Shown in pieces: positions 1-30,141 of a DNA stretch of 33,092 bases. The DNA is from Candidatus Nealsoniibacteriota bacterium (lineage in GTDB: Bacteria; Planctomycetota; Planctomycetia; Pirellulales; Thermoguttaceae). The stretch is taken from assembly GCA_013202865.1 (NCBI GenBank), contig JABMRB010001231.1, positions 1-33,092 on the forward strand, given 5' to 3'. A program made the position numbers and the translations under genes. The notes beneath the pieces were generated by a model. The model did no database searches and was not told where the DNA came from. It was given only the letters and a program-made list of their open reading frames with translations. The first letter of the stretch is position 1. Each line of letters starts with the position of its first letter.

Positions 1-124
1 ATCGATCATTCGATAAATGCAAGTCTTGCTCAAAATCAACGAGCAAGGGTTATGAGCACGGGACTCTCACGCCTGTGAGTCGGCCCCGATGAGCGCTGCA
101 CTTTCACGCCGGTGTTTACAGGAA

Positions 125-307
125 GGCCCCGGCTCGGGCTCAACAACAGCAGGGCCGCCCTGCCTTACGTCTCACCGTCGCCGTACACCCTCAGGACTTA
201 GGCGAAGGGCGTACGGCGACGGCGAGACGACGGCGAGACGACGGCAGGGCTAATCCAGGGTGGTCCACTTCGGTGCCGGTGCCTGGTCCCATTTGCGAGC
301 CGATCTC
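125..307. repeat. Direct repeat A, copy 1 (with long internal hairpin)
   Basis: This 183-bp stretch matches 11402-11573 base for base with few differences, in the same orientation, and the two copies bracket the minus-strand operon. The match ends abruptly after the shared gcgagccgatctc. Inside is a nested inverted repeat: outer arms GCCCTGCC (157-164) and GGCAGGGC (243-250), and inner arms of the type cgtctcaccgtcgccgtac pairing with gtacggcgacggcgagacg around a loop near ctcaggactta. The copy is 11 bp longer than copy 2 because GAGACGACGGC is doubled. I infer a dispersed structured element or recombination site. It carries no convincing ORF. The repeat itself is certain; its role is not. 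Confidence 0.9.
224..245. repeat. 11-bp tandem duplication inside repeat A1
   Basis: The unit GAGACGACGGC occurs twice in a row (224-234 and 235-245). The corresponding place in repeat A2 has a single unit, GAGATGACGGC. This one event accounts for the whole length difference between the copies. It lies in the 3' arm of the hairpin, so the extra unit would form a bulge. Confidence 0.9.
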
Positions 308-617
308 CAGCGGAGTAGTCCAACAAACGGATTCACGGAGCGATCCGTGCGACGGCGGACGTTCTATCAATTATTCGCGAGAAGAAAGCGAGCGGCTGAA
401 ACCCGCTGATCAAGAAATGCGTGAAGGTATACGCGACGCCGTTGGCGGTTGTCGATCGGCCGTGTGGCAATGGAACCGCCCAACGCTATGATCACCTGTA
501 GATCGGACACGCATTGCCCCATTATCATGTACTCTCTTGGGCCCAGATTTCCTGAAAACGGCTGAAAGTCGTTCTGCCGCATTTGATGAAATTGCGGAAA
601 CCGCAGCAACGATTGAC
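308..617. other. Gene-poor stretch left of cassette 1
   Basis: No convincing gene is visible. The only ORF of note is 367-621 on the minus strand (84 aa, starting MSQSLLRFPQF). Its ATG overlaps the stop of the 63-aa ORF at 618-809 in an ATGA arrangement, which would fit coupling but could be chance. It has no recognisable motif. Bases 1-124 hold only small stem-loops, such as CTTGCTC (25-31) facing GAGCAAG (41-47). Confidence 0.4.
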
Positions 618-809
618 TCATAGCCCCCCGTCTGGCGAGTATTCCAAAATCGCCTGCTTGATTTCCTCGGGCAAGAGCGGAAGTTTGGCAAGCCTCACCA
701 GCTCACCGGGAATGGCGTAATACTGGCGCGCCTTCTTAACGCGATGCATCAGCGGGACCGTTCCTTGATGAATCACGATTCCACCGGCTCGATGTCGTTT
801 TGCGGGCAT
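618..809 (-). CDS. Small hypothetical protein, 63 aa
   Basis: I do not recognise this protein. It lies 51 bp downstream of the sigma-factor gene on the same strand and could be the last gene of the operon. The N-terminus is basic (MPAKRHRAGG). The second half reads as amphipathic helix with the pattern ELVRLAKLPLLPEEIKQAIL, which loosely resembles the helical tails of ParB-like or serine-recombinase proteins; that resemblance is too short to name a family. No clear Shine-Dalgarno site precedes the ATG. It may be a real microprotein, a remnant of an older gene, or a chance ORF. Confidence 0.35.
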   Translation of the reverse strand: MPAKRHRAGGIVIHQGTVPLMHRVKKARQYYAIPGELVRLAKLPLLPEEIKQAILEYSPDGGL

Positions 810-860
810 GGGTTTATTCTTTGCGAGGGACAGAGTGATGATTGTGGGCGTCCGTTTGAT

Positions 861-1529
861 TCAGAGACACGGCTGTGCCTGCGAGCCCAATTGTTTCCAC
901 AGACGTCTCCGCGCGTAAACACCAAGATCCGATGCATCCATATCCGCGTTACTTATCGGTGGCACCATGCCATTGGCCAGATTAGAAAACAGGAACCGTC
1001 GCTCACACGGTGCCCCGCCGCCTGCTGTCCACGCATCAACCAACTCAGTATATCCACCGAAACCGTCAAGCCAAAAGGCGAGAATATCGGAGCCCAACTC
1101 GGTCAGCTCACCCCCGAGCAATATTCCATCTGGAGGCAGCTGTTCCGAACGTAAACCACGTCGATCGGAGTCCGATTGGACACCATTGATATCAACGACG
1201 GAATCCTTATCCTTGACTAGGATGGCCTCTCGTCGTTTCTTCTTCCTGTACCAATCCACTGTGCAGTTACTCCAGCATGTCTTTAGGAAGGCTCGGCACG
1301 ACCTTCTTTTCGGGTCACAGTTAGGAAGAAATGTCTCATGCGTGGCCAGGAGCACTTCCTGGCCCATGTCCTGCCGGTCCGCCTTGCAAAGGCTGCTCCA
1401 CTTCCCTGCAATGTAACGCTCGATCTCCTCGTTTACTTCTTCAAACAATCGTTTATAAGAAGTGTCGCGTTCATCATCAGCAGCCGTAACAAATTCGAGA
1501 TACAGTGTATCAAGCGTCGACTGGTTCAT
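861..1529 (-). CDS. ECF-like RNA polymerase sigma factor, 222 aa
   Basis: The protein fits a divergent group of extracytoplasmic-function sigma factors, which direct RNA polymerase to a small set of promoters. Region 2 is visible at about residues 45-105: an acidic DMGQEVLLATHE helix that normally contacts the polymerase clamp, followed by the -10-recognition helix FLKTCWSNCTVDWYRKKKRR. A linker follows, and the C-terminus (DLGVYARRRLWKQLG) looks like the recognition end of a weak region 4. The start ATG overlaps the stop of the 604-aa gene (ATGA), so translation is coupled. It is the last well-supported gene of the operon, downstream of a GHKL ATPase and a receiver-like protein. I infer that it is the output of that signalling pair and may control the operon itself. 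Region 4 is poorly conserved, so promoter recognition is uncertain. Confidence 0.72.
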   Translation of the reverse strand: MNQSTLDTLYLEFVTAADDERDTSYKRLFEEVNEEIERYIAGKWSSLCKADRQDMGQEVLLATHETFLPNCDPKRRSCRAFLKTCWSNCTVDWYRKKKRREAILVKDKDSVVDINGVQSDSDRRGLRSEQLPPDGILLGGELTELGSDILAFWLDGFGGYTELVDAWTAGGGAPCERRFLFSNLANGMVPPISNADMDASDLGVYARRRLWKQLGSQAQPCL

Positions 1530-3340
1530 CGTAGCACTTTCTCCTTCTCTTCGCCGTTCAGTATGCTCCTGGCTTGAACGTGCCCTTGCCAGTCTTCTTC
1601 TTCCTTCATCACGAGCCCCCGCAAGAAGTGGCGTTCAATCGGCCTTAGTCCAAAAGTACCGGCCTCCTCGTTCCAACCTCTGCCGGCAAGCACGTCAGAT
1701 ATCCGCAAAGCAAGATTTCCACGCTTCTTGCCTCCGGTTGACAGCGGGAGCGACTCGTCATTGAGTGCCAGCAGATTTTTCATCCAATTGTGTGAAGTGT
1801 CGATGTTCTCTCCTCCATGCCAAGCAAACACAGAAGGACTCTCTGGAATCGGATACAGAGCCAGATACACATCATTCGACATAATCGTGGGGTTTATCTC
1901 GCTGCCGTCTTCCCCTGTGAGATCATGGAAGCGGCGCTCCAAGTGCTTCTTGGCATTGAGCACCCTTTCAACAAGACGTTTGATAATCAGAATAGCCGCC
2001 CACCGTCGCACAAGGTCAGAATATTCGCCCGCAAATAGATCACAACACTTGTCAGTTCCGCAATGTCCGTGCAAACCGTTCGGCGTCGCAAACGTCTTAC
2101 ACCGATCCTTTAGCTTGTGTACCTTGTCGACCTCCACGAGTGCCACAAGTTCACGATGAACCATGCCGGAGATCTTGTCAGCCAGCAACGCCGGCGTATT
2201 GGCGGCATGCTCCAATCGAAATACCTCGGCTGCTTGTTCTTTGATTCCCAAAAGTCTTTCCGCCACGCTTGTGGTGTTGTCGCCATCGCTGCAAGGCTCA
2301 CACGCCTTGACTTGCGTTATCAACGGCCCCAATCTCTTGATTTTTTCGCAAACTGCCTTGTAGGACTTCGGATTTGCGTCTTTCAACGACGGTTCCAAGT
2401 TGGACACGACGCTCAACCAGTCTCGTAATGGAGCGAGCAACGCGGACAGTTGCCCACGTTCCTCAATGAGTTGCGTGTTGTTGTAAGCATCCCACACCGT
2501 CTTAGCCAGTTCATTGGCTGCGACATAGCCCTCTTTAGAAATCACATGATTCTGCAGGTCGTCCACCCAGGCCTGGATTGCCTTGGAACGCTCCTGTTCC
2601 GGCACGTCGATAAAGAGCCCCTGAACAGGTAATCGCCGCGTGCCGAAACGGGATTGGATTGTCACAACTTCGTGGTCGGGATTGGCAGCAAGCGCAATAA
2701 GGTCGCCAATGGAAATTACAATGCGATGGTCGTAGTACAGGCACTCGATGCGTGATCGAAGTCTGCGCACTCCTGCTTCTAGGATGTTCTTCCAGGTTCG
2801 TTTCTTTCCGGCAAACTCGATATCGACGTCATAGCACATCTTGAGCGTGCTTTCCAACTGTCGCACGGTGGGCCCCATGCGTTTCGACTGATAGGTTGTT
2901 GCGACCATGCCAGCCGGATGAAGCCGGAAGTGAGCAGCGTAGATCGAGCCTATCAAGAATCCGTCAAAATCCACCGCCTCATACTTTGCGGATAGGAAAC
3001 TCAATTGCGGGCCACTTTCCCCTGAATCGCCCTCATCCGCGTCCGACGCATCGTGAACATCGAATTGTCCTGCCGTCTTTCCCGAAGGATTGTATGTTGA
3101 GAGGTCGTAATCGATGGCAACTAGTTCGACAGGGAACACTGAGTCATTAGCATTTGAAGACAAATAGGCCTTCAGTAGTTGATTGAAGTCCTCGATGCTC
3201 TTGAGAGAGTCATTCTTGCCAGCGTCATCTTTGCAGACCACCTCGAAGAAGGGATCATACACACCGAGCCCACGTTCCGGGTGTCCGCTCTCCGGAATGT
3301 CATCAATCCAAAGGATTGCTATTTTGTCAAAGCTGGTCAT
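1526..3340 (-). CDS. Large protein with N-terminal receiver-like domain, 604 aa
   Basis: No overall family is recognised. The N-terminus has the hallmarks of a response-regulator receiver fold: a hydrophobic strand ending in two acids (IAILWIDD, residues 7-14) and a second strand ending in candidate phospho-acceptor aspartates (ELVAIDYDL, D77 or D79). The spacing is looser than in classical receivers (about 64 residues between the acids). The rest, about 480 residues, is mostly helical, with one cysteine-containing stretch near residue 430 (HGHCGTDKCCD) that might bind metal. There is no DNA-binding domain I can identify. The gene starts 5 bp after the stop of the GHKL ATPase gene, with AAGGAA in front of its ATG, and overlaps the sigma-factor gene by ATGA. 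I infer that it links the ATPase/kinase-like protein to the sigma factor, possibly as an anti-sigma or adaptor. Confidence 0.6.
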   Translation of the reverse strand: MTSFDKIAILWIDDIPESGHPERGLGVYDPFFEVVCKDDAGKNDSLKSIEDFNQLLKAYLSSNANDSVFPVELVAIDYDLSTYNPSGKTAGQFDVHDASDADEGDSGESGPQLSFLSAKYEAVDFDGFLIGSIYAAHFRLHPAGMVATTYQSKRMGPTVRQLESTLKMCYDVDIEFAGKKRTWKNILEAGVRRLRSRIECLYYDHRIVISIGDLIALAANPDHEVVTIQSRFGTRRLPVQGLFIDVPEQERSKAIQAWVDDLQNHVISKEGYVAANELAKTVWDAYNNTQLIEERGQLSALLAPLRDWLSVVSNLEPSLKDANPKSYKAVCEKIKRLGPLITQVKACEPCSDGDNTTSVAERLLGIKEQAAEVFRLEHAANTPALLADKISGMVHRELVALVEVDKVHKLKDRCKTFATPNGLHGHCGTDKCCDLFAGEYSDLVRRWAAILIIKRLVERVLNAKKHLERRFHDLTGEDGSEINPTIMSNDVYLALYPIPESPSVFAWHGGENIDTSHNWMKNLLALNDESLPLSTGGKKRGNLALRISDVLAGRGWNEEAGTFGLRPIERHFLRGLVMKEEEDWQGHVQARSILNGEEKEKVLR

Positions 3341-3345
3341 GCTTG

Positions 3346-5226
3346 CTATTCCTTACTTTGTTCCATGCCAGATAAATGGATGGCCACGCCATAAAACGGG
3401 ACGCCCTTTGTGTTCTTGTAGCGGCGGTGCCAAACAGAGCCAACATCCAGATTGTGAAGTATGCCGGCCACCATCCCGAGCCCCTTGCCAGCGGAGTCGT
3501 CCACTCGCGTATACGCGTCCGGTAGGCTTCGCCACTTAAGAAAGCCGAGGTCGCGGTCATCATTTTGCACGTCGACCCAGTTGCACAACAGCATTGCGGG
3601 CAAACCGTCGACTAAGTCTGATTTGACAATCAATGATACCGTCGCGAGGTTGTGAGCGACAGTGTTATTGATCCCCCCGTGTCGAATTGCGTTTAGGAGC
3701 ACCTCATAGAAGACGGCGGACAGCACTTCATCGCCAAGCCGACAGCGAGCATTCTCATCATCCACAATTTCCGGAGACAATCGCAACGAACAGTTGTTGT
3801 CCACGATTACTCTCAATTCCAGGGAGCATTCCCCGAAGCCGTCGATGCACCGAGAAGACAAAACATTGGCCGCCCATTTCCTAACCTGATGCACCAGATC
3901 AAGGGGACTTCGATCGTAGGAAACGAAGCGTTCCCTTTTCGCCTTTTCTTTCTTGTAGTACTCCCAGAAGCTGTCGATCCGGTCGAATCCCCACAACTGA
4001 AGCGTTTGATAGGTGTTGGACAGCGTTCGTGCGCTTCGCATTGCGAGGTAGGTGCCACGAGAGACGTCATCAAGAGCATGAATTCCCGTGCCCGCGTTTT
4101 CCATCTCGCGCTGGTAATCCGTTAGATGTTTACCTTGAATATCCACGAGCTGCCGTTCGACGTCGTCACAGCGATTGCGCATGATATGGCCTGAGTTGCG
4201 GAATGCCGATTCCATGACTCTCAATACTTCTGAATGCCGTTGTGTCTCAGCCATCGCCTGCAGGACCGGCGAAGCGTTGAGTCCCAGGAGCATTCGCAGA
4301 ATATGGTGGAACGCCCTGTCCGGCTCCTCATGATCCATCGTCGGCCAATAGATCACCATCGTGGAATCGAATCTGTTCTGAGCTGTTGGTGAATGGAAGT
4401 AGGAGACGCTGGAGTGGCCCATTCCCTCGCAGTAGATTGCCATCAGTGCGAAGTGTTGCACGGCGTTCTGGCATTCCTTACACAGTTTCTTCTGCATGTC
4501 CTCTGCGACTCCCTTTTCTGCCAGTTGTTCTCCGAGTGAAGAAGTGGAATGCTCCCACGCTTTTATATGACTGGCAAGCTGCTCTTTTGCAATGTCATAA
4601 TATCCCTTTGCCGAACGCGACTGTCCGAATTCCCTCCAAATATCACGAACGGTGTTGATGATCGCGTTCGGCGTTGCGCCAGGTGGACGAAGGAACTGGA
4701 CTGTGATATCCCTTGCATTATCCCACTCTTCTCGCTCATTCGCATCGACGCGGTGTTCCAGGTTGTCAGGGAAGAACGCTCGAAATTGAATTCCAACGCT
4801 ATTTGGACGCAATGTGAAAATATGGGCCAGGGCGAGGCCAGATTCTTTTCTCGCTAACATCTGAAGGAATGGCAACGAATGGTAGGAATCGTTGAGAAGA
4901 AGAACAATCTCGCGAAAGAAGTCCGAGAATTTCCCGCCCCCCTCCAACTGTCCTCGCCCTCCCGTGGGAGCCACTCCTTTGAGTCGTTCACGCTCAGCCT
5001 TCTCCTTTCCTGGTGTCCAAAACACTTCCGTTCCAGGATAGATTGGCCTAAGACACTCTTCGAGATCCCCTGAGAAACGCATCTCTAACTGTTCGCGGTT
5101 ATGGTCGTAGGAGGCGACTCGCAACAAGAGTGAATTGCACAACCAAATCGCGTGTTCCGTAGGGCATTCATTCCCCTGGCGGCGGTCTGGATAGTTGCAT
5201 TTGTGGCCGGTTGTTGTTTCAGTCAT
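3346..5226 (-). CDS. GHKL ATPase (histidine-kinase-like) protein, 626 aa
   Basis: The last 130 residues form a HATPase_c (GHKL) domain: N-box FYEVLLNAIRHGG near residue 512 and G-box GKGLGMVAGIL near 577, followed by the usual final strands. This fold binds ATP in histidine kinases, Hsp90, MutL and gyrase. The 450-residue N-terminal part is soluble and mainly helical, with no transmembrane segment and no PAS, GAF or HAMP unit that I can recognise. A classical HisKA phospho-acceptor motif is not evident; LDLVHQVRKW near residue 445 sits where one would be expected but is atypical. The start ATG overlaps the radical SAM stop (ATGA). I infer a cytoplasmic sensor paired with the receiver-like protein encoded next. 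It could be a kinase, or an ATPase switch without phosphotransfer. Confidence 0.68.
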   Translation of the reverse strand: MTETTTGHKCNYPDRRQGNECPTEHAIWLCNSLLLRVASYDHNREQLEMRFSGDLEECLRPIYPGTEVFWTPGKEKAERERLKGVAPTGGRGQLEGGGKFSDFFREIVLLLNDSYHSLPFLQMLARKESGLALAHIFTLRPNSVGIQFRAFFPDNLEHRVDANEREEWDNARDITVQFLRPPGATPNAIINTVRDIWREFGQSRSAKGYYDIAKEQLASHIKAWEHSTSSLGEQLAEKGVAEDMQKKLCKECQNAVQHFALMAIYCEGMGHSSVSYFHSPTAQNRFDSTMVIYWPTMDHEEPDRAFHHILRMLLGLNASPVLQAMAETQRHSEVLRVMESAFRNSGHIMRNRCDDVERQLVDIQGKHLTDYQREMENAGTGIHALDDVSRGTYLAMRSARTLSNTYQTLQLWGFDRIDSFWEYYKKEKAKRERFVSYDRSPLDLVHQVRKWAANVLSSRCIDGFGECSLELRVIVDNNCSLRLSPEIVDDENARCRLGDEVLSAVFYEVLLNAIRHGGINNTVAHNLATVSLIVKSDLVDGLPAMLLCNWVDVQNDDRDLGFLKWRSLPDAYTRVDDSAGKGLGMVAGILHNLDVGSVWHRRYKNTKGVPFYGVAIHLSGMEQSKE

Positions 5227-6527
5227 GCATCACCATAGAACTCTTGGTAGAATCCGTTTCGCAGTTCGACTAGTTTCTCCATCGGACATTCACAGCGAAC
5301 AATGACATGTTCTCCGTCATAGTGGTCCCAATTCTCGTCTTGAATGAGCCCGCGTCTATGATACTCCTTGTGAATCGGAGTGCCTGGGAAGGGCACCAGG
5401 AAGGAGACATAGGGGAAATCGATCGCAATGCCGCTCTCTCGCAGCATCAGGAGGCGATTCAGCCCGTACTGGATTAGGCCATAATTCTCGTGAGGCTCAC
5501 CGATTATATACGACGGGCACACACGAATACCATGATCGCAGAGAATTTGCAGGCTTTCCTCCACGTTCGGGCCGCCGGCCTTATGGTAATGTCGAAGTGT
5601 CGCCGGGATAAACGACTCCAGGCCAATCACGGATCGACTATATCCCGACTGGCGGAGCAACGGCAGAAGACGATGGACTTTTGGATTCTTTAGATCGGTA
5701 AGCTTCATGTATGTGTGCCACTTGACGGGACTGCCGCGATCGACCAACCCTTGGGCAATCGCCCGCACGCGACGCGGATTGGAGAAGAAATCCTCGTCCC
5801 AGATAGCCAGCGTCTCAACTCCGTAGCGTGTTGTGAGATGGTCGACTTCTTCAAGAATCTGTTTAACAGACCTCGACAGGGGACGCTCGTAGCGGCACGC
5901 AGTATGGCAGAACGTGCATTTGTAGCGGCAACCTCGCTGGGCATGGATTGTTGCATAACGCTTGCCCGGAAAAGCTTCGGCCGAGTATTCATCCATGGGA
6001 AGCCCTTCTCGTTCCATCATCGGCAGTTCGGCCGGATACACGCGTTGGGCGGCGGAAGTCGACATTGCATGGACCCCATCACTTCCTCGGTAGGCGATGC
6101 CGGGAATGTCGGCGGGCGAAGCTCCCTCCAGGTAGGTGAGAAAGGCTTGCTCACCATCGCTAATCACTGCCATATCTGCGTCAGCCGTTTCCGCAAGGCG
6201 TACGGCATTCTCTGAAGTGACGCACTCGCCACCGATTGCTATTCTAGCATTCGGGATCACTTCGCGAACCAGTCGAACGCTATCGCAACTTCTATTGAAA
6301 TTGAAGTTTCGTACGGAGAAGCCGACGACCGTGGGCTGGTAGTCGGCGAGCACATTTCGAAGATCATCTTCGACGGAAGTTCGGAGTAAGTGCAGTAACC
6401 GACAATCAATTGCACGTTTCTTGAGCAACGCGGCCAGATAGCACAAGCCGATGGGCTCGGAATGCGAGAGACGCTGCAGCCCGCCAGCCGGCTTATCGAT
6501 TTTGACCAAGAGGACCCTTTCGTTCAC
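5223..6527 (-). CDS. B12-binding-domain radical SAM protein, 434 aa
   Basis: Radical SAM enzymes of this class use a [4Fe-4S] cluster and S-adenosylmethionine, often with cobalamin, for difficult methylations or rearrangements. The cluster motif is CRYKCTFC (C200, C204, C207 with the start used here). The first 140 residues form the Rossmann-like B12-binding domain (PTVVGFSVRNFN, then RIAIGGECVTSEN); the DxHxxG cobalt-ligand motif is not seen, so any cobalamin would bind base-off. Later parts of the barrel include LAIWDEDFF and SVIGLES. The ORF track starts at 6686, but that extension lies wholly inside the ABC ATPase gene. I choose the GTG at 6527 because AAGGAGG lies just upstream and the GTGA overlap matches the other junctions. 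The substrate is unknown; the two methyltransferases upstream suggest a shared small-molecule pathway. Confidence 0.85.
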   Translation of the reverse strand: MNERVLLVKIDKPAGGLQRLSHSEPIGLCYLAALLKKRAIDCRLLHLLRTSVEDDLRNVLADYQPTVVGFSVRNFNFNRSCDSVRLVREVIPNARIAIGGECVTSENAVRLAETADADMAVISDGEQAFLTYLEGASPADIPGIAYRGSDGVHAMSTSAAQRVYPAELPMMEREGLPMDEYSAEAFPGKRYATIHAQRGCRYKCTFCHTACRYERPLSRSVKQILEEVDHLTTRYGVETLAIWDEDFFSNPRRVRAIAQGLVDRGSPVKWHTYMKLTDLKNPKVHRLLPLLRQSGYSRSVIGLESFIPATLRHYHKAGGPNVEESLQILCDHGIRVCPSYIIGEPHENYGLIQYGLNRLLMLRESGIAIDFPYVSFLVPFPGTPIHKEYHRRGLIQDENWDHYDGEHVIVRCECPMEKLVELRNGFYQEFYGDA

Positions 6528-7246
6528 GCCGGTCCTCCTTCCGGTGCGTGCTTGGTCTTCTCGAATCGTACGAGATGTCCGTCGGAGAGTTCCAGAACGT
6601 GGTCCCCCCACGATTCCGCAAGTTCGTGGTCGTGGGTGACCATGACGGTGGTTATGCGATGCTCGCGAATCCATGCCCGAGTCCACCGCAGAAGATTCTC
6701 TCGGACTGTCGGGTCCAAGTTGGCCACAAACTCGTCCAAGAGCAGGATAGATGGACTTCGCATCATTGCCATGATGATTGCCACCTGCTGGCGTTCCCCT
6801 CCCGAAAGCTCCGAGACTGGCGTATTCTCGAACGATTCAAACCGCTCCTGCAACCCGGCCCTTTTCAGAAAAGCATGGATGTCATGCTGAAAACGGTGTT
6901 CAGGAAATGTCAAGAGATACGAGGGACGCCGGGAAAACACGAGGCTCAGGTTTTCGAGCGGCGTCATGGAACCGACAACGCCAAGCCCAACGTCCTGAAA
7001 AACGCTGACTACTTCACTTCGCATGTTGGTGACCGGAGTATCGTCGACGAGTATTTCACCTTGGTCCCAGGGAAAAGCGCGCCGCAAACAATTCAACAGA
7101 GTTGTCTTCCCGGAACCGTTGTGGCCGATTACCGACAATATCTGGCCACTTTGGAGCGAAAACGAAATGTCCCTAAGCGCTGGAACTTCCCGTCCGCCCG
7201 GGGTGATGAAGGTCTTCGACAGACTATCTACTTGCAGATGCGACAT
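6524..7246 (-). CDS. ABC transporter ATP-binding protein, 240 aa
   Basis: This is a complete nucleotide-binding subunit that powers import through the permease encoded just upstream. All key motifs are present: Walker A GHNGSGKT (residues 41-48), Q-loop VFQDVGLG, signature LSGGERQQ, Walker B ILLLDE and H-loop THDH. Its length is normal for the family. The ATG is 2 bp after the permease stop, and the gene's own TGA overlaps the GTG of the radical SAM gene. Together with the permease and binding protein it forms a TrpXYZ-type importer; members of that family have been tied to aromatic amino-acid uptake, but the substrate here cannot be read from sequence. Confidence 0.93.
   Translation of the reverse strand: MSHLQVDSLSKTFITPGGREVPALRDISFSLQSGQILSVIGHNGSGKTTLLNCLRRAFPWDQGEILVDDTPVTNMRSEVVSVFQDVGLGVVGSMTPLENLSLVFSRRPSYLLTFPEHRFQHDIHAFLKRAGLQERFESFENTPVSELSGGERQQVAIIMAMMRSPSILLLDEFVANLDPTVRENLLRWTRAWIREHRITTVMVTHDHELAESWGDHVLELSDGHLVRFEKTKHAPEGGPA
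6534..6540 (-). promoter_or_regulatory. Shine-Dalgarno site setting the radical SAM start
   Basis: On the minus strand AAGGAGG stands seven bases before the GTG at 6527. It is the strongest ribosome-binding site in the operon. It lies inside the end of the ABC ATPase gene and decides against the longer ORF beginning at 6686. Confidence 0.75.
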
Positions 7247-7248
7247 TG

Positions 7249-8145
7249 CTATATTCGTATCTTTTCGAGCACATTATGGCCAAAGAAGCCGTTGCTTCGC
7301 GCGAGCCAGCAAAACGCTATCACCATTAGCGAAGTCACTAGGTCCAAACCGCCATCGGGCATGCCGAGATTCAATGCCAGGAGACGCACTAATTGCATAA
7401 CCAAAGTACCGCCAATACAGGCGAGGAAAGCCGGCGCTAGTCTTCTGGTTGGGAAGATGGCCTCGCCCAACATGATCGCAGCTAGCGCCGAGATGGCCAT
7501 GCCACGTCCCATGTTTATGCTCGCGTAGCCCGATCGCTGTGAGAGCAGGGCCGCAGCCAGGCCAATGACCCCATTAGCAATTGCCAGGCCGACCATATCC
7601 CAGACAAGCAACGAGTGGCCTAATTCTCGTGCAAGATTGGGGTTCTCGCCACGTATGCGTAGCATGAAACCACTACCCGTTCGTAACAAGCTTACAACCC
7701 CGACGACAATCACGGCGAGTGACAACGCCATGCCCACAATTCCCACTGCTAGTGGATTATCGAGAAAACCAAGCACAGAGCCTAGTACCCAATCATCCGG
7801 AAGTGTTCGGCTCGGCTGGCCCGCAACAAGAAGGCCAACAGAGAAGCACATCATCATTGTAAGGATCGAAGCCAGAATCGTTGGCAACTTCACTAAATTG
7901 GCCAACGCGGCAGTCGTCAACCCAGCAGCGACTCCCGCCAAAACGCTGACTATCAGGGCGATCCAAGGCGAGCCCGTGCTGACATACGCCATGCCGCCAA
8001 GAATGGCTGAAAGCCCGAAACCACCCTCTGCCGTCAAGTCGGGAAACCGCAAAACGCGGAACGACAGGTATACGCCAATCGTGACGACCGAGAACAACAG
8101 AGTTGTTTCCAGGGTGTACAGCAATTGTACGACGGTGGAGTTCAT
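7249..8145 (-). CDS. ABC transporter permease (BPD_transp_2 type), 298 aa
   Basis: A polytopic inner-membrane protein with about eight hydrophobic segments, beginning with LLFSVVTIGVYLSFRVL. The stretch PDLTAEGGFGLSAILGG is typical of the branched-chain-amino-acid/TrpY-like permease family. It should form the membrane channel for the neighbouring ATPase and binding protein. The ORF track begins at 8175, but the ATG at 8145 gives the ATGA overlap with the binding-protein stop and removes a charged 10-residue extension, so I prefer it. Confidence 0.9.
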   Translation of the reverse strand: MNSTVVQLLYTLETTLLFSVVTIGVYLSFRVLRFPDLTAEGGFGLSAILGGMAYVSTGSPWIALIVSVLAGVAAGLTTAALANLVKLPTILASILTMMMCFSVGLLVAGQPSRTLPDDWVLGSVLGFLDNPLAVGIVGMALSLAVIVVGVVSLLRTGSGFMLRIRGENPNLARELGHSLLVWDMVGLAIANGVIGLAAALLSQRSGYASINMGRGMAISALAAIMLGEAIFPTRRLAPAFLACIGGTLVMQLVRLLALNLGMPDGGLDLVTSLMVIAFCWLARSNGFFGHNVLEKIRI

Positions 8146-9131
8146 TCCCCGACCTGCTTTCCTTCTTGTTTCCACGTTTCGGGAACTGCAAGGCCCAACT
8201 CGTCAATCTGGCTGCTGTTATAGTAGAGTTCAAAACGATCCGCTTGACGAATGGGCATTTCGGCCGGTCTCTTCTTGCCGTTTAGGATAACGGCGGCCAT
8301 TTCGGCGGATATCCTGCCCAAGTCATCGTAATTGAAGCCCACGGAAAAGATCGCCCCTTGCTTCGCCGTTCCTTCATCGCAGTTGAAGACGGGGATTTCG
8401 ACCTCATTTGCCGTTCGAACCAAGAGCGGAAACGCGCTCTGAATGGTCGCGTCGGTTGGAGCGTATAACGCGTCGACTTTACCGACGAGTGAAACCAACG
8501 TTTGCTTGATTTCGTTCTGATTCGAGATGGTTGCCGCAACTGGCGTTAGGCCGCGTTCTTGACATTCGATCTTGAAGCGACCCGCGATGATCTCGGAGTT
8601 GTCTTCCGATGGGTTGTAAATGATGCCAATTCGCTTTGCATTTGGCAGCATCTCGGCAAGTCGGTCCAATTGGGCGCTAATGGGGCTGAGATCGCTCGTG
8701 CCTGTGACGTTGTGTCCCGGTTGCTCCCATGAATCTACCAGCCCGGCAGATTGAGGATCGGTGGCTGCCCCAAGTACGATCGGCAGGCTATCGGCCTTCT
8801 TCATCAGGGATTGGGCTTGGTTTGTACCAATGACGAACACGAGATCGTATCCCTCCGTGGCAAATTTCCGAGCCATCTGCTCTGTCTTGGCCGCGTCGCC
8901 CTCGGGCACCATCGTTACAAACTCCACTCTGCCGGGAAATTCTCTCTCCAGAGTCTCGCGAAAGGCGTCGGCCATCCCGTCGAGAACCGGATGCCGCACC
9001 ACTTCGAAAACGCCTACCTTGAAGTGCTTCTCACCCGGAGTCGGCGGCCCGCCGTCCTGGTTTAGGCAAAAGATCAAGGCGATCAGGACGATCACAAGGC
9101 CGATCCCAACATACCACCTTCTGTTTCTCAT
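8142..9131 (-). CDS. ABC transporter substrate-binding protein (ABC_sub_bind / TrpX-like), 329 aa
   Basis: The N-terminus is a membrane-targeting segment (positively charged MRNRRW, then a hydrophobic run ending LIALIFC). The cysteine might be lipidated, but phenylalanine at -1 is atypical, so it may simply be a membrane anchor. The mature part has the two-lobed periplasmic-binding fold of PF04392: YDLVFVIGTNQAQSL, IVLGAATDPQSAGLV, RIGIIYNPSEDNS and ALYAPTDATIQSA are characteristic. It should capture a ligand outside the membrane and deliver it to the permease. Both ends overlap neighbours by ATGA. Being in one operon with methyltransferases and a radical SAM enzyme, its ligand is likely either the precursor or the product of that chemistry. 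Confidence 0.9.
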   Translation of the reverse strand: MRNRRWYVGIGLVIVLIALIFCLNQDGGPPTPGEKHFKVGVFEVVRHPVLDGMADAFRETLEREFPGRVEFVTMVPEGDAAKTEQMARKFATEGYDLVFVIGTNQAQSLMKKADSLPIVLGAATDPQSAGLVDSWEQPGHNVTGTSDLSPISAQLDRLAEMLPNAKRIGIIYNPSEDNSEIIAGRFKIECQERGLTPVAATISNQNEIKQTLVSLVGKVDALYAPTDATIQSAFPLLVRTANEVEIPVFNCDEGTAKQGAIFSVGFNYDDLGRISAEMAAVILNGKKRPAEMPIRQADRFELYYNSSQIDELGLAVPETWKQEGKQVGE

Positions 9132-10126
9132 GACAGAGATCCCTTATTTGCGGGTTTTTCGCAGACAATCAAGTGTTCGTTGTATGAAGGCCCTGTGGGG
9201 AACGGTCGCGACCGTGTCTCCACAAAGCCCGCGCGATGCAGAGCATCGCTCAGTTCCTGCTCTGTATGACATCGTCCGAGCGAGTCTCCGTTCACACCTG
9301 TACTTAGCTCGAACATGTCGAGTTCGACTTGCAATTGCCCGTCATCGGACCGCAAGAAAGTGACAAAAACCGCCTTTCCGCCAGGTTGGAGGTACTCGCA
9401 CACTCGCTTGAGCCATGTGTCGAGTCGGTCCGCCGAGCAGTATTCTAGCAAATGGCTGCAAAACACCGCATCAAATGGTGATTCCGGTGTCCAGGCCGGA
9501 AAATCGCCCGGCACCCAGTGGAAATACTCCGTTTCTCCGTAAAGTGATCTCGCCGTTTCCACCACTGACGTGAGGTCCACCGCAGTCACATCAAGTTGCC
9601 CATCCTCGGCAAGACCTCGACATAGGGTGGCGGGACCAGCCCCCAGGTCAAGAACGCGTCCTAGCAGATGCTCCCTGCACTCCCCCTTGAGGAAGTCAAG
9701 ATTGGATTGGGCGATCACATCCATCGATTTGAGATACGAACGGCAGAAATCGGAATTCTGTATCCGCTGACGGTGAAAGCCCCCACCAGTCTTCATCGAC
9801 ACGACATCGGGCAGCGCAAGCCATGCCTCGAAGCAATGAAGGTGATACCCGGCGAACGCATCGAGGGTTGTGTCGCATTTCGCCGTGGCACCATCGGCAG
9901 TCAATCGATATTGATCATTGTCGCATTCCGCCAACTGAAGCTCGACGAGCAAATTGAGGACTGGTTGGATCCAAGTTCCTTCATAACCGACCCTATTTGC
10001 AACGGAGGTGGACGTTTGCGGTTCGAGTTCAAGCGATCGGAGAATCCCACTGCGCACGGCGAACGCCAAGACGCGCGAGCGCTTGTAGGCACGAAGTTCG
10101 TCGTAAAGTACTGTCAATCCGCTCAT
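9128..10126 (-). CDS. O-methyltransferase-like SAM-dependent methyltransferase, 332 aa
   Basis: The architecture resembles plant/bacterial small-molecule O-methyltransferases (Methyltransf_2 / HIOMT type). Residues 1-90 form a winged-helix dimerisation domain (SGILRSLELEPQTSTSVANR, ending in YRLTADG). A Rossmann domain follows with SAM motif I VLDLGAGPATL (158-168), the acidic residue in VTAVDL, and FDAVFCSHLLEY. The catalytic histidine of classical O-methyltransferases is not obvious, although SHLLEY is near the right place. The start at 10126 is chosen over 10162 because it gives the ATGA overlap with the previous gene. The acceptor is unknown; a hydroxylated or carboxylated small molecule is more likely than nucleic acid or protein. 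Confidence 0.82.
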   Translation of the reverse strand: MSGLTVLYDELRAYKRSRVLAFAVRSGILRSLELEPQTSTSVANRVGYEGTWIQPVLNLLVELQLAECDNDQYRLTADGATAKCDTTLDAFAGYHLHCFEAWLALPDVVSMKTGGGFHRQRIQNSDFCRSYLKSMDVIAQSNLDFLKGECREHLLGRVLDLGAGPATLCRGLAEDGQLDVTAVDLTSVVETARSLYGETEYFHWVPGDFPAWTPESPFDAVFCSHLLEYCSADRLDTWLKRVCEYLQPGGKAVFVTFLRSDDGQLQVELDMFELSTGVNGDSLGRCHTEQELSDALHRAGFVETRSRPFPTGPSYNEHLIVCEKPANKGSLS

Positions 10127-11100
10127 GTAGGTCGATCTCCCCACGCGTACAATAGCCTCCAACCGATTAGCGTGCCCGCCTTAGTTTGGCATGAGCCAAG
10201 ATAGCGGTCAATGGCGTCGCCAACGAAGCCAGCCTTCTGGCACGGCAACACCAGTGGTTCTGAAATCGACTCTCCGCCTATGCCAAAAAGCTCATGGAGA
10301 AACCAAGTCGCGTCACCAACGGTTGGGAAACACCACGGCGTTATCCTAACCGCAGTCTGCACATTCGTGAATCCCGCTTCTCGCATGATTTGGGCGACGT
10401 GGTTCGCCGTCTCAAAACACGCTGCATGGCCACTCGGGCACTCCGACGCCACGAACTCGTCAAAGAATGCTGCTGGCTCTGGTGCTATGGGGAACGCGGG
10501 GATTTCGAGTGTGGGTCCTGCTGCTCGTCCCAATGCGGCCTTCAGGTTCGGAAGGTTGGCAACATAATCTCGCCCCCTCCCGTTTTCCGAAGAAGTCACT
10601 TCACCGGTTTGCGGCACGTCTGCGAGAATCAATCGCCCCCCCGGGCGCAGCAAGGCTCGCCATCGCCTCAATACTCCCAGCCTGACACGTTCGGTATCTA
10701 AAGCCGAAAGGGAACTGTCTCGTTCAGCCTCTTCGGCAAGGATGTGATGAAAACCCGCCAAGCAAACCGCGACGTCATATTCCCCGGGCAATTGGCGCAG
10801 TCCCGATTCCCGGCATGCATCGCCTTCGTACACCTTGCGTTTGGTCGATGGGGCGGGCAGCAGGCTTGCTGTTTCATCGATCAGGTCAATCCGTCGAAAC
10901 ACTGGTGCCAGCCAATCCGACGCGAAACCCGCCCCCCCAAAGATGTCGAGCATAACGCCATTCCTACCTGCGGCAAGCTCGCATATATGTGCAAGTTCCG
11001 CCACCCGAGCTTCCGGAAATCGCTGCATAGCGGCCACATAGCGTACGGCTCTAGCTCGAAACGCCTCGCGACAATTGAGCTTCGTCGTAATTCGTGTCAT
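10123..11100 (-). CDS. Class I SAM-dependent methyltransferase, 325 aa
   Basis: A single Rossmann methyltransferase domain with motif I MLDIFGGAGF (50-59), the acidic post-I loop IDLIDETASL, motif II-like YDVAVCLAGFHHIL, and WRALLRPGGRLILADVPQ, where LRPGGRL is the common post-motif strand. The C-terminal 120 residues (EFVASECPSGHAACF onwards) probably cap the substrate pocket. It is the first gene of the nine-gene operon. No strong Shine-Dalgarno site precedes the ATG. Its stop overlaps the start of the next methyltransferase, so the two may act in sequence on one substrate. Which atom is methylated cannot be told. Confidence 0.82.
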   Translation of the reverse strand: MTRITTKLNCREAFRARAVRYVAAMQRFPEARVAELAHICELAAGRNGVMLDIFGGAGFASDWLAPVFRRIDLIDETASLLPAPSTKRKVYEGDACRESGLRQLPGEYDVAVCLAGFHHILAEEAERDSSLSALDTERVRLGVLRRWRALLRPGGRLILADVPQTGEVTSSENGRGRDYVANLPNLKAALGRAAGPTLEIPAFPIAPEPAAFFDEFVASECPSGHAACFETANHVAQIMREAGFTNVQTAVRITPWCFPTVGDATWFLHELFGIGGESISEPLVLPCQKAGFVGDAIDRYLGSCQTKAGTLIGWRLLYAWGDRPT

Positions 11101-11161
11101 GGCAAGTAGTTAGATGATGTCGTCTGGTGGAAGGTGGGTTGCTGACACAACCTCTCACTGT

Positions 11162-11195
11162 ACTATAGGAAAATCGATTTGACTCATCCTGTCAA
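11162..11195 (-). promoter_or_regulatory. Possible promoter of the cassette 1 operon
   Basis: On the minus strand TTGACA (11195-11190) and TATAGT (11167-11162) lie about 60 bp before the first gene's ATG. The boxes match consensus well but the spacer is 22 bp instead of about 17. Only one of the two may therefore be used, or an ECF-type promoter that I cannot recognise may drive the operon. Bases 11101-11401 otherwise hold no gene. Confidence 0.3.
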
Positions 11196-11401
11196 TCGCT
11201 GCCAAACGACATCTGCGATTGGTAAAGCACGTCGTAGCAGAATGTTACGTCGATGTCGTCATTTCTCTATCCCGGAGATCTACCCCCGAGCATCCCGAAG
11301 TGAGCATGCACGAAGGAACCTCGAACGCAGGATTGCTTCAAGCAGTGGAGATCGATGCGCAAATTGACCCGGCACAAGCCGAATTACTGGCAATGTCGGG
11401 A

Positions 11402-11573
11402 GGCCCCAGTTCGGGCTCAACAACAGCAGGGCCGCCCTGCTTTACGTCTCACCATCGCCGTACACCCTCAGGACTTCGGCGAAGGGCGTACGGCGACGGC
11501 GAGATGACGGCAGGGCTAATCGAGGGTGGTCCACTTCGGTGTCGATGTCTGGTCTCATTTGCGAGCCGATCTC
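11402..11573. repeat. Direct repeat A, copy 2 (with long internal hairpin)
   Basis: This is the second copy of the repeat at 125-307, in the same orientation. The outer hairpin arms are GCCCTGC (11434-11440) and GCAGGGC (11510-11516). Compared with copy 1 it lacks the doubled 11-bp unit. Of the substitutions in the arms, two (gcctt to gcttt, gagacg to gagatg) keep pairing by G-T wobble and one (ccgtcg to ccatcg) does not. It marks the promoter-proximal edge of cassette 1. Confidence 0.9.
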
Positions 11574-11951
11574 GAAACCAGCAAGCACGTCGCCGTATCT
11601 GAAAAGCTCTTGCCGTCCAACATGCAGTCGTCACCCGAAGTCGGTTCGGACCGGCCGAGGAAATTTGCCTTGCCAGGCGGTCAAATTGAGAACGTCGCCC
11701 CGCTCTGGAATCAAACCGACCAAGGTTGCGTCGATTCACTCATGCGCCGCCGCGACGATCAACCGCCGGAACTGCCCATGCAGCAAGACTCGATAGCCGA
11801 TGAGGTCGAGTTGCTGGGCGTGGAGGGTTCCTTTGAGCTTCATGGAAGGTGACCTTCGCGAACTCGGCGCGTACTGTTGAGCTTTCGTACAATGGATGGA
11901 GATACGGCCGTGCGGACGTGACAGGGTCCGCCGTGCCAGCGAGCCCGGCGG
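11574..11951. other. Spacer between the two cassettes, no supported gene
   Basis: Short ORFs exist on both strands but none has a motif, good start site or stable extent. On the minus strand a broken reading frame runs into repeat A2 (fragments such as FRYGDVLAGFEIGSQM), which may be the remnant of an older gene that once carried the repeat in its 3' end. I cannot name it. Confidence 0.4.
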
Positions 11952-12109
11952 AGAACTCATGTCGTCAATCTACGCGCCGAGAACCCGTGGGCGGCCAGGT
12001 AGATGACAGAGCCTCGCAATCGATGGCCACCCCCCACCGGGTGAGTATTGGGCCCGTTGTGAATGCTCCGCAGCCGGTCTGAGCGTTAGACCGCTCTCCG
12101 GAAATCTTC
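11952..12109. repeat. Direct repeat C, copy 1
   Basis: This 158-bp segment matches 29939-30096 in the same orientation, from agaactcat to ccggaaatcttc. The first 55 bp and the part around tgtgaatgctccgcag are almost identical, with more drift between. It contains an imperfect stem-loop: GTCaATCTAC and GCCG pair with CGGC and GTAGATGAC around agaacccgtggg, with one bulged A. Read on the minus strand, both copies keep similar peptides in one frame (for example ALSSTWPPTGSRRVD), so they may derive from coding sequence. The two copies bracket the 17-kb defence cassette, and each is next to tyrosine-recombinase sequence. Confidence 0.88.
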
Positions 12110-12110
12110 A

Positions 12111-12260
12111 CCGGTGCTGGTGGCAGCCTACATTGAGGAACTGGGGCTCTACCGCGCTCCGCCCACCGTGCAGCAGCATCTCGCCGCAATTCGCACACTG
12201 TTTGATTTCCTGGTCATTGGGCAGGTCGTCCCCTTCAACCCGGCCGCATCCGTGGCCTAG
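12111..12260 (+). pseudogene. Tyrosine recombinase fragment (N-terminal core-binding part)
   Basis: Translation of this strand gives PVLVAAYIEELG, then PPTVQQHLAAIRTLFDFL and NPAASVA, ending at TAG. This aligns without gaps larger than one or two residues to residues 78-125 of the intact recombinase at 30142-31125 (VAAYVESLSS, PTVKLHLAAIRMLFDYL, NPAASVRG). The catalytic domain is absent, so it is non-functional. It lies directly after repeat C1 and points into the defence cassette. Confidence 0.82.
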
Positions 12261-12380
12261 CAAGCTACGGATTTACGCTCGTGGACTCTCCACCGCTCAT
12301 GCCCATATGTGTTTGGCTGAGACAACTGGCCGGCGTACCCACATTCCACACTGAACAGCGTGCGATGTAGGTCGACGATG

Positions 12381-12441
12381 CCACCCCCCCTGCAGAGTGC
12401 AGGGTGGCTGGGCGACGAAGTCGCTTTCTGACGGGGGGTGG
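12381..12441. repeat. GC-rich inverted repeat before the defence operon
   Basis: The arms CCACCCCCC (12381-12389) and GGGGGGTGG (12433-12441) face each other across 43 bp, and a tight inner hairpin CCCTGCA-gag-TGCAGGG (12388-12404) shares the left arm. The two structures exclude each other in part, so a regulatory switch is conceivable. There is no T-run, so a simple terminator is not supported. The rest of 12261-12528 holds no gene that I can see. Confidence 0.55.
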
Positions 12442-12516
12442 CGCTTCCTTTCCCGTTCCGAGTTTGGTAATGTTTGCAGGTGTTCATGAGTCCGTTCCGC
12501 CAGAGATTTGGCAGGC

Positions 12517-12525
12517 GAGGTGAGA
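12517..12525 (+). promoter_or_regulatory. Shine-Dalgarno site of the MerR-like gene
   Basis: GAGGTGAGA ends three bases before the ATG at 12529. It supports that ATG rather than the TTG at 12508 used in the ORF track. Confidence 0.6.
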
Positions 12526-12528
12526 TCC

Positions 12529-12759
12529 ATGCCGAAACTAAGCGAGTATTTGACGATCAAGGACGCCGCCGAGTTCTTGGCTGTGTCCCAGAATACCCTG
12601 AGAAACTGGGAGGCGAGCGGCAAGATTGCCGTTCATCGAAACCCAATGAATGGCTATCGCCTTTTCAAGACCCAAGACCTGCAGAACTTGCTGGAAGAGA
12701 TCGAAAAGTCAGCCGCCCCGGCGAACCCGAAATCCCGGCGTCCAAGGCAAGCGAAGTAG
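12529..12759 (+). CDS. MerR/excisionase-like helix-turn-helix protein, 76 aa
   Basis: The protein is a minimal DNA-binding domain: YLTIKDAAEFLAVSQNTLRN forms the helix-turn-helix (about residues 7-26), followed by the wing GYRLFKTQDLQNLLEEIEK typical of MerR and excisionase folds, and a short basic tail (KSRRPRQAK). There is no effector-binding domain. It is the first gene of the defence operon and ends 40 bp before the giant helicase gene. I infer a local regulator of the operon, or a directionality factor for the mobile unit. The HTH assignment is firm and the role is not. Confidence 0.85.
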   Translation: MPKLSEYLTIKDAAEFLAVSQNTLRNWEASGKIAVHRNPMNGYRLFKTQDLQNLLEEIEKSAAPANPKSRRPRQAK

Positions 12760-12799
12760 ACCGCCAGCACTGTCCTCACAACCTTGTGGCAATCCGACG

Positions 12800-15700
12800 A
12801 TGGACATCTTTCAGCTGCATTCGGAAATCGTCCGCGATTACCGGTCGTACATCGAGAGTTTCATCAACATTCGTGACGATAAGATCCGCGAGGTTGTTGA
12901 GCGTTCTCTCCTTGGGGGGCGTCTCTGGCCGGAGCCAATGCTCCAATTCAACCCGGCATTCGAGACCGTTGCCGACATATCAGAGGTTATCGATCAAGGA
13001 CTGCTTTCCAAGGAGCTCAAGGACATTTTTTGGGACATGCGCTCTGGTGAACCCTATCGTTTGTATCAGCACCAGCTAAAAGCGTTGAAGCTTGGTGCTG
13101 CCGAGCGAGATTTTATTGTGACGTCTGGGACGGGGTCAGGGAAATCACTAACGTTCATCGGCACGGTTTTCAACCATCTTTTCAAAACGAATAGCTTTGG
13201 TAGCGGTGTTCAAGCGGTGTTCGTATACCCAATGAATGCGCTGATCAATTCGCAAGTTGACGAGCTTGATAGATACGCGGCGGCGTTTGAGAAGCGTACT
13301 GGCACACCGTTTCCCGTGCGATACGCGTCCTACACCGGCCAGCTAAGAGAAGACGACCGCGAACCATTGCGTGAATCCCCTCCGGATATTTTCTTGACGA
13401 ACTACATGATGCTGGAACTCATCCTGACCCGGCATCGTGAACACGTCATCCGAGACTCGATCTTTGAGCATCTCCGGTTTCTTGTGTTCGACGAATTGCA
13501 CACGTACCGGGGGCGTCAGGGGGCTGACGTTGGGATGCTCGTGCGCCGCATTCGCGCCAAGAGCACACACCAACCGGTCTGCATCGGCACATCGGCTACG
13601 ATGGTGTCTGGTGACAGTTCCGTCGAAGAACAAAAGCAGGAGGTGGCAAACGTCGCATCACAGATCTTCGGGGCTCAGTTTGAGTCGGAGCAAATCATAA
13701 ATGAAACGCTGACGAAGTCATTCTCTCCCGAGTCGCCGCTTCCCTCACGAGAAGAACTTACCAAGTCCGTCGAAACCAGTGTTGACTTTGATGCTGGTCC
13801 AGAACACCTTTCTTCCAATCCCGGTGCAATATGGCTTGAAAGTCGCATTGCCTTGACCGAGAAGGACGGTGATCTTGTTCGTAACGTACCAAGGACTTTC
13901 CTTGAAATCGCCAATTCGCTTTCCGAGGACACCGGCCACTCGGTTGATCACTGCTCAACACACCTACGTGATCTTATGCAGTGGATTAACCTTGTAAATG
14001 AGCGCAATCCTGACTCTCGCTACACCTATCTTCCATTCAAGCTCCACCAATTCTTCGCACAAACCGGTTCAGTCTACACCTCGCTTTCGCAGGCTGATGA
14101 TCGCATCATCACGATGGAACCCGGTATTTTTAAGACAGACGATCGGGGTAAGACACCGATTTTCCCCAACGCGTTCAGCCGCGGATCTGGTCACGCATTC
14201 ATTTGCGTCTACATGGACACCAGAGAACGGCAATTGCTGCCTCGCGAATTCAACGACACGGAGCTGGAAAGTGCGTCACGCATCCCCGGATATGTCATCG
14301 TTGGAGAGGATGTCTGGAACCCCGCGGAAGACCGTGAATCGATGCCCGAGTCATGGTTCAAGGTAAGCAAGTCTGGGGAAGTTTCTATTGTCAAGAAATA
14401 CGAAGACCGGATTCCGCAACCCGTCTCCTTTGATGAATCGGGGAACTACTCGGTATCCCACGCCATGGATTACACAGGCTGGTTCATGTCCTGCCCTCTC
14501 CTGTTCGATCCAACTAGCGGGCAGTTTTTCGATCCACAGACGAATGAGTCGACGAAGTTGACACGCTTGGGAAATGAGGGACGAAGCACATCTACCACGA
14601 TTACGGCATTCTCCATCTTGTCTCGTCTCAGTGAACACGGCTATCTCCCACAGGATCAGAAGCTCCTCAGCTTCACGGATAATCGACAGGACGCGGCGTT
14701 GCAGTCTGGTCATTTCAATGACTTTATCAAGGTCGTCCAGCTTCGTTCAGCGATATGCAACGCCGTCGAGACGGCACCTGACGGACAGCTCACCTACACG
14801 AACCTTGGTGACGCGATCTTCAATGCACTGAAACTGGATTTTCGTGAATACGCCAACTACAAGAGCGACATCCAAGCCGCTCCACCACCGCCGGTTCTCC
14901 ACGCATATCATGAGTCACTAAAGAAGTACCTCGTATATCTCGCATTGTACGATCTCCGGCGAGGCTGGCGGGTAGTACTGCCCAACCTTGAGCAATGTGC
15001 CCTCCTGAAGATCGACTACGCACACCTCGACGACATCGCCGCTTGGGACGAAGGCTGGGCCACAGTACCACCGTTCAATTCACTGCCGGTGTCTGAGCGA
15101 CGGCAGTTGCTCTTCAATGTGCTGGATTTGTTTCGTCTCGAATATGCAATCTACAGTGAAAACTATCTCACCGAGGAGCGAATTCGCCAGAACAAGAAGG
15201 AGATTGAGGAGAAGCTCATTCCTCCATGGAAGTTCGAGGAAGCCGATCGGATCGATCCGTATTACCTTCGATATGACACGCTGGCTCCACGTACCAAGCT
15301 GTACACGAAGAGCGTCGGTCTGACCAGTGCCTTGGGTAAATTTATCCGGCAGAGGATACGGCAGATTGATCCGGACTTCGAACTAAAACGAGATTCCTAC
15401 TTAGAACTTATCGTGGCTTTGCTGGACATGTTGGAGGCAGCCACCTATCTCACGTCACGAACAGCGCAAAATCGCGAGAACAAAGAAGTCAAGGTCTACC
15501 AGCTAAGATTGGACAAGATCATATGGCTGCGAGGGGATCGCGAGACCGTGGCTCCTGATGTAGTGAAGCGGCGAACGTACAAGGCCATCACACCCCAGCC
15601 GAACCGCTTCTTTCAGCAAGTCTATCTGCGTGACTTTTCCGAGATCAAACGGTTAATTGGCGGCGACCACACCGGGCAACTGAGCAACGAACAGCGAATC

Positions 15701-17977: not shown

Positions 17978-17980
17978 GAC

Positions 17981-20827: not shown

Positions 20828-20897
20828 CCAGAGTTTGGGAAACGTCGGCACAATGAAGACATCCGACATGGGATAGGAGCGGCAACCGCCGTAGGCA

Positions 20898-24683: not shown

Positions 24684-24693
24684 GTACGCGACG

Positions 24694-28519: not shown

Positions 28520-29283
28520 GCCTGTTCACTGACCCGCAAGGTATTGATGCGTACGGGCATCGGCTTGCGCAACTGCTCATCGTCGGCGGTTACCAACTGG
28601 AATCACGTGCCGCGTGTGGCAAACGTGTCCTTTTTGACACATGGGCAAAGGCCGTCAGGTCCGAGGCTCGGAAACGCGGCATTGAAGCATCGCCCGATCA
28701 ACTGCGCTGGCTGTGGGATTCCCTCAAGGTTGAGCCTGAAACCAAGAAGGCCCTTGGTAAGCTGATGGTCGACGGTGCGGAGGTGAAGCCCGTTAAGGTC
28801 CTGCCGAAGGGCTGCACGTTTTCCATAGACCTGAAGAACATCTCGACGGGGTATGGCAGAAAGGGCGATGCCTTCGGTCCAAAGCTCAAACCGACCGCAA
28901 AGGTCACGATTGATAACGATTTGTACATGAAACGTGGCAAGAAGAACCATCTCGAATGTCAGCCGCTAAAAGCGACTTTGTGCATGACGATCCACAGCGA
29001 TGTGGACTCCGAGGAAGCCGAAGCGGCCAAGATGAAGGCAAAGCCAACCAATGTGTCAGTCGCTGGGAGCGAGGTGACGGTACAGGTTGGCAGCCTTAAC
29101 CAAGCTTACACGAAGGCAAGCCTACGGCTCGAACCAGATCGACAAAGCCACGGTGGTCGCACGTACGACGCTCTCTTTTGGATCGCCCCTCCGGGAGAAC
29201 AGGTGTCACTCGGAGAGATTCGAGACGATGTCGAATGCGGAAAATGGACCTTCCCCGACCTGTCACTCTCTGAAGAGGAGTAG
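28516..29283 (+). CDS. Uncharacterised protein, 255 aa
   Basis: I do not recognise this protein. The N-terminal third is helical and basic (TWAKAVRSEARKRGIEASPDQLRW). The rest is predicted beta-rich with alternating hydrophobics (CTFSIDLKNIS, AKVTIDNDLYMKRGKK, SEVTVQVGSL), ending in an acidic tail (LSLSEEE). No catalytic motif is seen. The ATG overlaps the 618-aa stop (ATGA), so it belongs to the same translational unit. It could be a small adaptor that bridges the helical accessory proteins. Confidence 0.72.
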   Translation: MSLFTDPQGIDAYGHRLAQLLIVGGYQLESRAACGKRVLFDTWAKAVRSEARKRGIEASPDQLRWLWDSLKVEPETKKALGKLMVDGAEVKPVKVLPKGCTFSIDLKNISTGYGRKGDAFGPKLKPTAKVTIDNDLYMKRGKKNHLECQPLKATLCMTIHSDVDSEEAEAAKMKAKPTNVSVAGSEVTVQVGSLNQAYTKASLRLEPDRQSHGGRTYDALFWIAPPGEQVSLGEIRDDVECGKWTFPDLSLSEEE

Positions 29284-30096: not shown

Positions 30097-30141
30097 GCCT
30101 CGGAAGAAGGAACGCGTCCTCGTTGTTGTCGGGGCGGTCGA

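Follow-up and report, generated by a model that had tools for sequence, protein, structure and literature searches.

What kind of regulatory system is encoded by three consecutive genes near one end of a planctomycete contig was the question raised by the 33,092-nucleotide stretch of DNA analyzed here (the window). A preliminary description had presented them as an unusual three-gene relay made of a GHKL ATPase, a receiver-like protein, and an ECF-like sigma factor. The three open reading frames lie on the minus strand between positions 861 and 5226, code for 626, 604, and 222 amino acids, and keep their order in another phylum. A relay that ends in a sigma-like protein is still the best reading of these genes, but the unit to which they belong consists of nine genes rather than three. 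The interpretation that we favor, and which we hold to have about an even chance of being right, is that the trio is the regulatory module of an apparently mobile nine-gene sense-and-respond cassette in which a two-component-like relay leads to an ECF-like sigma factor, and this factor in turn activates the operon that encodes it.

The nine-gene cassette and its relatives

The nine tightly coupled genes form a minus-strand operon that runs from window position 11100 to 861, with the regulatory trio as its 3′ third. The features are as follows:

11161 to 11205, minus strand: candidate cassette promoter, TTGGCAGCGATTGACAGG-N18-CCTATAGTA, some 60 nt ahead of the MTase A start codon; closest fit within the window to the motif derived from the Desulfobacteraceae locus L008
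10123 to 11100, minus strand: MTase A, methyltransferase-like protein, first gene of the cassette, ATG at 11100
9128 to 10162, minus strand: MTase B, O-methyltransferase-like protein
8142 to 9131, minus strand: TrpX-like substrate-binding protein (ABC_sub_bind, E = 9e-68; under the NCBIfam TrpX cut-off)
7249 to 8175, minus strand: ABC transporter permease (BPD_transp_2)
6524 to 7246, minus strand: ABC transporter ATPase
5223 to 6527, minus strand: B12-binding/radical-SAM protein
3346 to 5226, minus strand: P0001, 626-aa GHKL-like soluble kinase candidate, assigned at the level of motifs
1526 to 3340, minus strand: P0002, 604-aa receiver-like protein, assigned at the level of motifs
861 to 1529, minus strand: P0003, 222-aa sigma-like protein with a sigma region 2

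At most junctions the genes overlap at their start and stop codons or lie only a few bases apart, which indicates that the cassette is expressed as one transcript. The true start of the radical-SAM gene is probably the GTG at 6527, which agrees with the relatives and overlaps the stop of the ABC ATPase gene, and not position 6686 as in the open-frame listing. No convincing gene was found downstream of the sigma gene in the 860 nt up to the contig end. A 63-aa ORF in this segment (618-809, minus strand) looks by eye like what is left of a small protein of the recombinase-associated kind and has no Pfam match.

A pattern scan over 84,980 species genomes using the radical-SAM alignment as bait returned two loci. 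One of them, L008, from a Desulfobacteraceae MAG, includes all nine genes in identical order and orientation (coordinates 5384-15474), while the other, L009/L007 from a Planctomycetaceae MAG, includes the first seven, its contig stopping within the GHKL-like gene. The radical-SAM protein of the window is 61% identical to that of L008 and 53% identical to that of L009/L007, and the nearest known relative is therefore found in another phylum. The identities between window and L008 are 37% for the receiver-like, 28% for the GHKL-like, and 19% for the sigma-like protein; only these two relatives of the cassette were found. Plasmids, viral contigs, and additional sampled genomes of both phyla yielded no further carriers, and no published description of such a cassette was found in the portion of the literature that was searched. 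The nine genes are flanked by a 187-bp direct repeat with an internal hairpin (121-307 and 11398-11573, about 88-94% identical), of which no further copy was detected in 260 kb of other loci from the same genome. The patchy distribution together with the flanking repeat suggests that the cassette, which is rare, has moved horizontally.

The window also includes a large defence-like island (12650-29283, plus strand) with Druantia DruE-like and DpdE/DrmD-like helicases, a DrmMI-like methyltransferase, OloA/OloB (Olokun) homologues, and then a 255-aa protein of unknown nature. A second direct repeat flanks this island (11952-12112 and 29939-30099, 86% over 163 bp), and each copy is adjoined by tyrosine-recombinase sequence: at about 12120-12260 there is a fragment recognized by eye, and 30142-31362 is a complete integrase-like ORF. 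A role of the regulatory trio in the island was set aside, as PADLOC, in a search that covered the window, matched none of the three proteins and defence genes were not recognized beside the cassette in either relative. In L007 the cassette diverges from a gene for a TauD-like dioxygenase, which is followed by an M20-type peptidase gene (7511-10318), and in L008 the segment directly downstream (16597-20651) includes a radical SAM plus Nudix fusion, a U32-peptidase-like gene, and another radical SAM gene.

The three regulatory proteins

The presence of a sigma region 2 in P0003, proposed in the preliminary description, is supported by three controlled methods. An hmmsearch that used 23 ECF-type sigma factors from this genome gave 21.4 bits for approximately residues 14-115 (shuffled sequences, at most 1.7), and hhalign to sigma reached 65.6% (controls, at most 0.4-1%); the matches to Pfam Sigma70_r2 (E = 0.013) and to an NCBIfam sigma model (E = 2e-4) were weak. 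The C-terminal half compared with region 4 of the ECF proteins of its own genome gave an hhalign probability of at most 0.7%, and no known C-terminal extension family was matched. A C-terminal stretch common to the window and L008, D-S-x3-YxRRxLWK, corresponds to no recognizable region 4. The L008 homologue taken alone had no significant sigma match.

P0001 had been described as an ATPase without membrane segments and without a clear phospho-acceptor histidine. The first statement holds, as the highest 19-residue Kyte-Doolittle mean is 1.46, but the second does not: H347 lies within an H-box-like motif, GHIMRNR, that is conserved between phyla, aligning with GHTLKHR in L008. By reading, this stretch, located about 160 residues ahead of the N-box, looks like the H-boxes of soluble or AgrC-like kinases, and H347 can be considered a candidate phospho-acceptor at the motif level. 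An N-box (EVLLNAIRHGG, residues 508-518) and a G2 box (GKGLGM, residues 580-585) were also identified by reading; the usual DxGxG G1 box was not.

In P0002 the CheY-type set D13, D14, D77, T149, and K167 is conserved between the window and L008. Either D77 or D79 had been suggested as the conserved aspartate; D77 is kept between phyla and D79 is replaced by N in L008, which favors D77 as the candidate phospho-acceptor. A poorly conserved acidic insertion occupies approximately residues 80-123, and when it is discounted the distance from D77 to T149 is close to that of CheY. A scan of 1605 open frames with the receiver pattern returned only P0002, its homologue, and five typical receivers, three of which are PF00072 loci. 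The receiver-like part is followed by a long body of 480 residues, helical in a low-confidence model, with no recognizable DNA-binding domain.

Neither a GHKL profile for P0001 nor a receiver profile for P0002 gave a match above shuffled controls (Pfam, NCBIfam, hhalign, hmmsearch), and Pfam, NCBIfam, PADLOC, PHROGs, and PDB sequences contributed nothing usable for either protein. AlphaFold models built from two-row alignments were uninformative as to fold (pLDDT 36 for P0001 and 38 for P0002). A GHKL regular-expression scan modelled on P0001 and its homologue misses ordinary kinases and is not evidence for the fold. Because no profile rose above the shuffles and the models were uninformative, both assignments are motif-level only. 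The same results speak for a rival explanation in which the two readings are wrong and P0001 and P0002 are proteins of unknown fold with chance motif-like stretches beside a sigma-like gene. We consider this improbable, since the motif residues are in register between phyla in proteins that are just 28-37% identical, and the receiver pattern is as rare as the scan of open frames indicates.

The preliminary description had also likened the locus to partner-switching logic. P0001 would then be a serine kinase/anti-sigma factor in the style of RsbW or SpoIIAB that sequesters the sigma factor, and P0002 its antagonist. A GHKL-like protein does share an operon with a sigma gene here, and P0001 without its DxGxG box is, by reading, unusual as a GHKL protein. 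Against this, P0001 has 626 amino acids, with an N-terminal region of sensor size and the conserved H-box-like motif, in contrast to the single-domain RsbW-type kinases; no STAS-like antagonist was found, and the receiver residues sit on the middle protein. Since H347 is conserved and the cassette includes no anti-sigma-like gene, two-component-like phosphotransfer is the more economical reading, and we regard a partner switch as quite improbable.

Candidate cassette promoter and proposed relay

In L008, MTase A and a small gene located after the sigma gene are preceded by the same 44-bp block. The motif TGTCAGA-N17-YGTATANTA was matched perfectly exactly three times in the 434-kb contig, always around the cassette:

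L008 site 1: upstream of MTase A
L008 site 2: upstream of the gene for a 67-aa four-repeat protein
L008 site 3: divergent, ahead of a 127-aa gene, the first in a set with lipoprotein-like, ExbB, and ExbD members

This number is partly circular, because the consensus was derived from those sites; the 33-base core had zero matches in 2.6 Mb of Markov sequence. The window served as an independent test of a 26-position motif learned only from the three perfect L008 sites. The closest match in all 33 kb (11205→11161) precedes MTase A in the correct orientation and has mismatches at 5 of the 26 positions, while the second-best match in the window and the best in 260 kb of other DNA from the same genome have 7 each. 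None of 100 random 33-kb windows, and none of 1000 random stretches of 300 nt, contained a match as good. The sequence ahead of the L007 cassette did not match the motif (best, 9 mismatches). A promoter that two phyla share only alongside the cassette implies that the cassette encodes its reader, and P0003 would be the obvious candidate.

The L008 genes behind sites 2 and 3 deserve a separate comment. The 67-aa protein (15848-16051), which has its own cassette-type promoter, consists of four 17-residue repeats (KGYIDNFGNIRDNSNNP) and shows a weak match, below cut-off, to the Pfam 5-fold beta-flower family (E = 4e-6), on which its consideration as a RiPP precursor was dropped; no repeat peptide of this type was found in the window. 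The divergent set (1-4718, minus strand), with genes for the 127-aa protein of unknown nature and for lipoprotein-like, ExbB-like, and ExbD-like proteins behind a perfect cassette-type promoter, is a possible target of the cassette sigma factor.

Several points speak against the favored relay. Besides the missing profile and fold support for kinase and receiver, the absent G1 box, and the small number of relatives, these are the lack of a region 4, which ECF sigma factors use for the −35 element, the L008 homologue with its 19% identity, and the missing motif in L007. The lack of a region 4 and the divergence of the L008 homologue also fit a different explanation, in which the motif combines a sigma-70 −10 element (TATANT) and an activator site made of a 10-bp tandem repeat, and P0003 is not a working sigma factor but a degenerate sigma mimic that binds protein, like the sigma-like part of PhyR. 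TATANT suits sigma-70, and each of the three L008 sites has a 10-bp tandem direct repeat, TTKTCAGGRRWTGTCAGA, which is recognizable in the window as well. On the other hand, the 21-22 bp that by reading separate a TTGTCA-like hexamer from TATANT are unfavorable for a sigma-70 −35 element, both halves of the motif and the distance between them resemble an ECF promoter, the cassette encodes no other transcription factor, and residues 14-115 of P0003 resemble an intact sigma region 2. This explanation is in our opinion unlikely, although it deserves to be kept in mind. Less likely than that, yet conceivable, is a phosphorylation-gated composite sigma factor in which P0003 contributes only region 2, reading YGTATANTA, and the −35 recognition of the 10-bp repeat comes either from the new C-terminal domain of P0003 or from dimeric phosphorylated P0002, so that promoter recognition would depend on the relay as the cassette moves between phyla.

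For the two-component-like relay with an ECF-like output, which we prefer, we infer the following sequence of events. The ABC importer together with the methyltransferases and the B12-radical-SAM enzyme would either handle some small molecule or produce it, and the TrpX-like binding protein points to a possibly amino-acid-like one. P0001 would sense the presence or flux of this molecule in the cytosol, autophosphorylate on H347, and hand the phosphate to D77 of P0002, and phosphorylated P0002 would free or recruit P0003. Since there is no anti-sigma gene in the cassette, either P0002 itself would hold the sigma factor or the latter would be active only with P0002. P0003 and core RNA polymerase would then transcribe the cassette from its own promoter, TTKTCAGGRRWTGTCAGA-N17/18-YGTATANTA, in a positive feedback, and in L008 the P0003 homologue would also transcribe the flanking beta-flower repeat protein gene and the divergent gene set. 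The relay proposed earlier gains support from the conserved upstream promoter, but two of its three domain calls are motif-level only.

If this reading is true, the cassette is a compact transferable unit whose two-component-like relay leads straight to a sigma factor that has a promoter of its own, with no visible anti-sigma factor. The conserved promoter and the conserved D77 and H347 make the relay directly testable in vitro. The cassette could provide an orthogonal ligand-inducible sigma/promoter pair, and it could also hint at what an uncharacterised B12-radical-SAM enzyme tied to a TrpX-type importer acts on.

Comparison with known systems

As in canonical two-component systems, the cassette shows, at the level of motifs, a candidate phospho-acceptor histidine with N and G boxes, and a partner protein with the receiver residue set. 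Unlike them, its proteins have no profile match, the kinase candidate is soluble, the receiver-like part is joined to a 480-residue body without a DNA-binding domain, and the output is sigma-like. Co-encoding of an ABC transporter with a regulatory module is a feature that the cassette presumably shares with transporter-coupled sensing of the Pst-PhoR and BceAB-BceRS kinds, from which it presumably differs by its TrpX-type importer, cytosolic kinase, and sigma output. As had been proposed, the locus also differs from RseA-type anti-sigma systems: P0002, encoded beside the sigma gene, has no hydrophobic segment (19-residue maximum, 1.12), and no convincing gene follows the sigma gene. The SigO-RsoA split sigma factor is similar in that P0003 is a region-2 protein without recognizable region 4 and has an uncharacterised partner in its operon, but the P0001 and P0002 families compared with region 4 by hhalign were negative.

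The general stress response PhyR-NepR-EcfG joins a histidine kinase, a receiver-bearing protein, and an ECF sigma factor in one self-driving circuit (PMC8103513). The cassette likewise unites kinase-like, receiver-like, and sigma-like proteins with an apparent drive of its own genes. It differs in that there is no NepR-like anti-sigma gene and the conserved genes leave no space for one, in that neither P0002 nor its homologue has a sigma-like domain when compared with an ECF sigma profile, and in that it occurs in other phyla, next to genes for transport, methyltransferases, and a radical-SAM enzyme. With ECF sigma factors the cassette shares region 2 of P0003 and apparent autoregulation, and its motif, TGTCAGA-N17-YGTA, resembles the ECF41 promoter, TGTCACA-n16-CGTC (PMC3426412), with similar spacing, although a sigma-70 −10 element plus an activator site might account for it as well; the cassette departs from them in the lack of a recognizable region 4, in a −10 element extended to YGTATANTA, and in the extra upstream tandem repeat. 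With two of its domain assignments made from motifs, the cassette may be considered a variant of two-component/ECF signalling.
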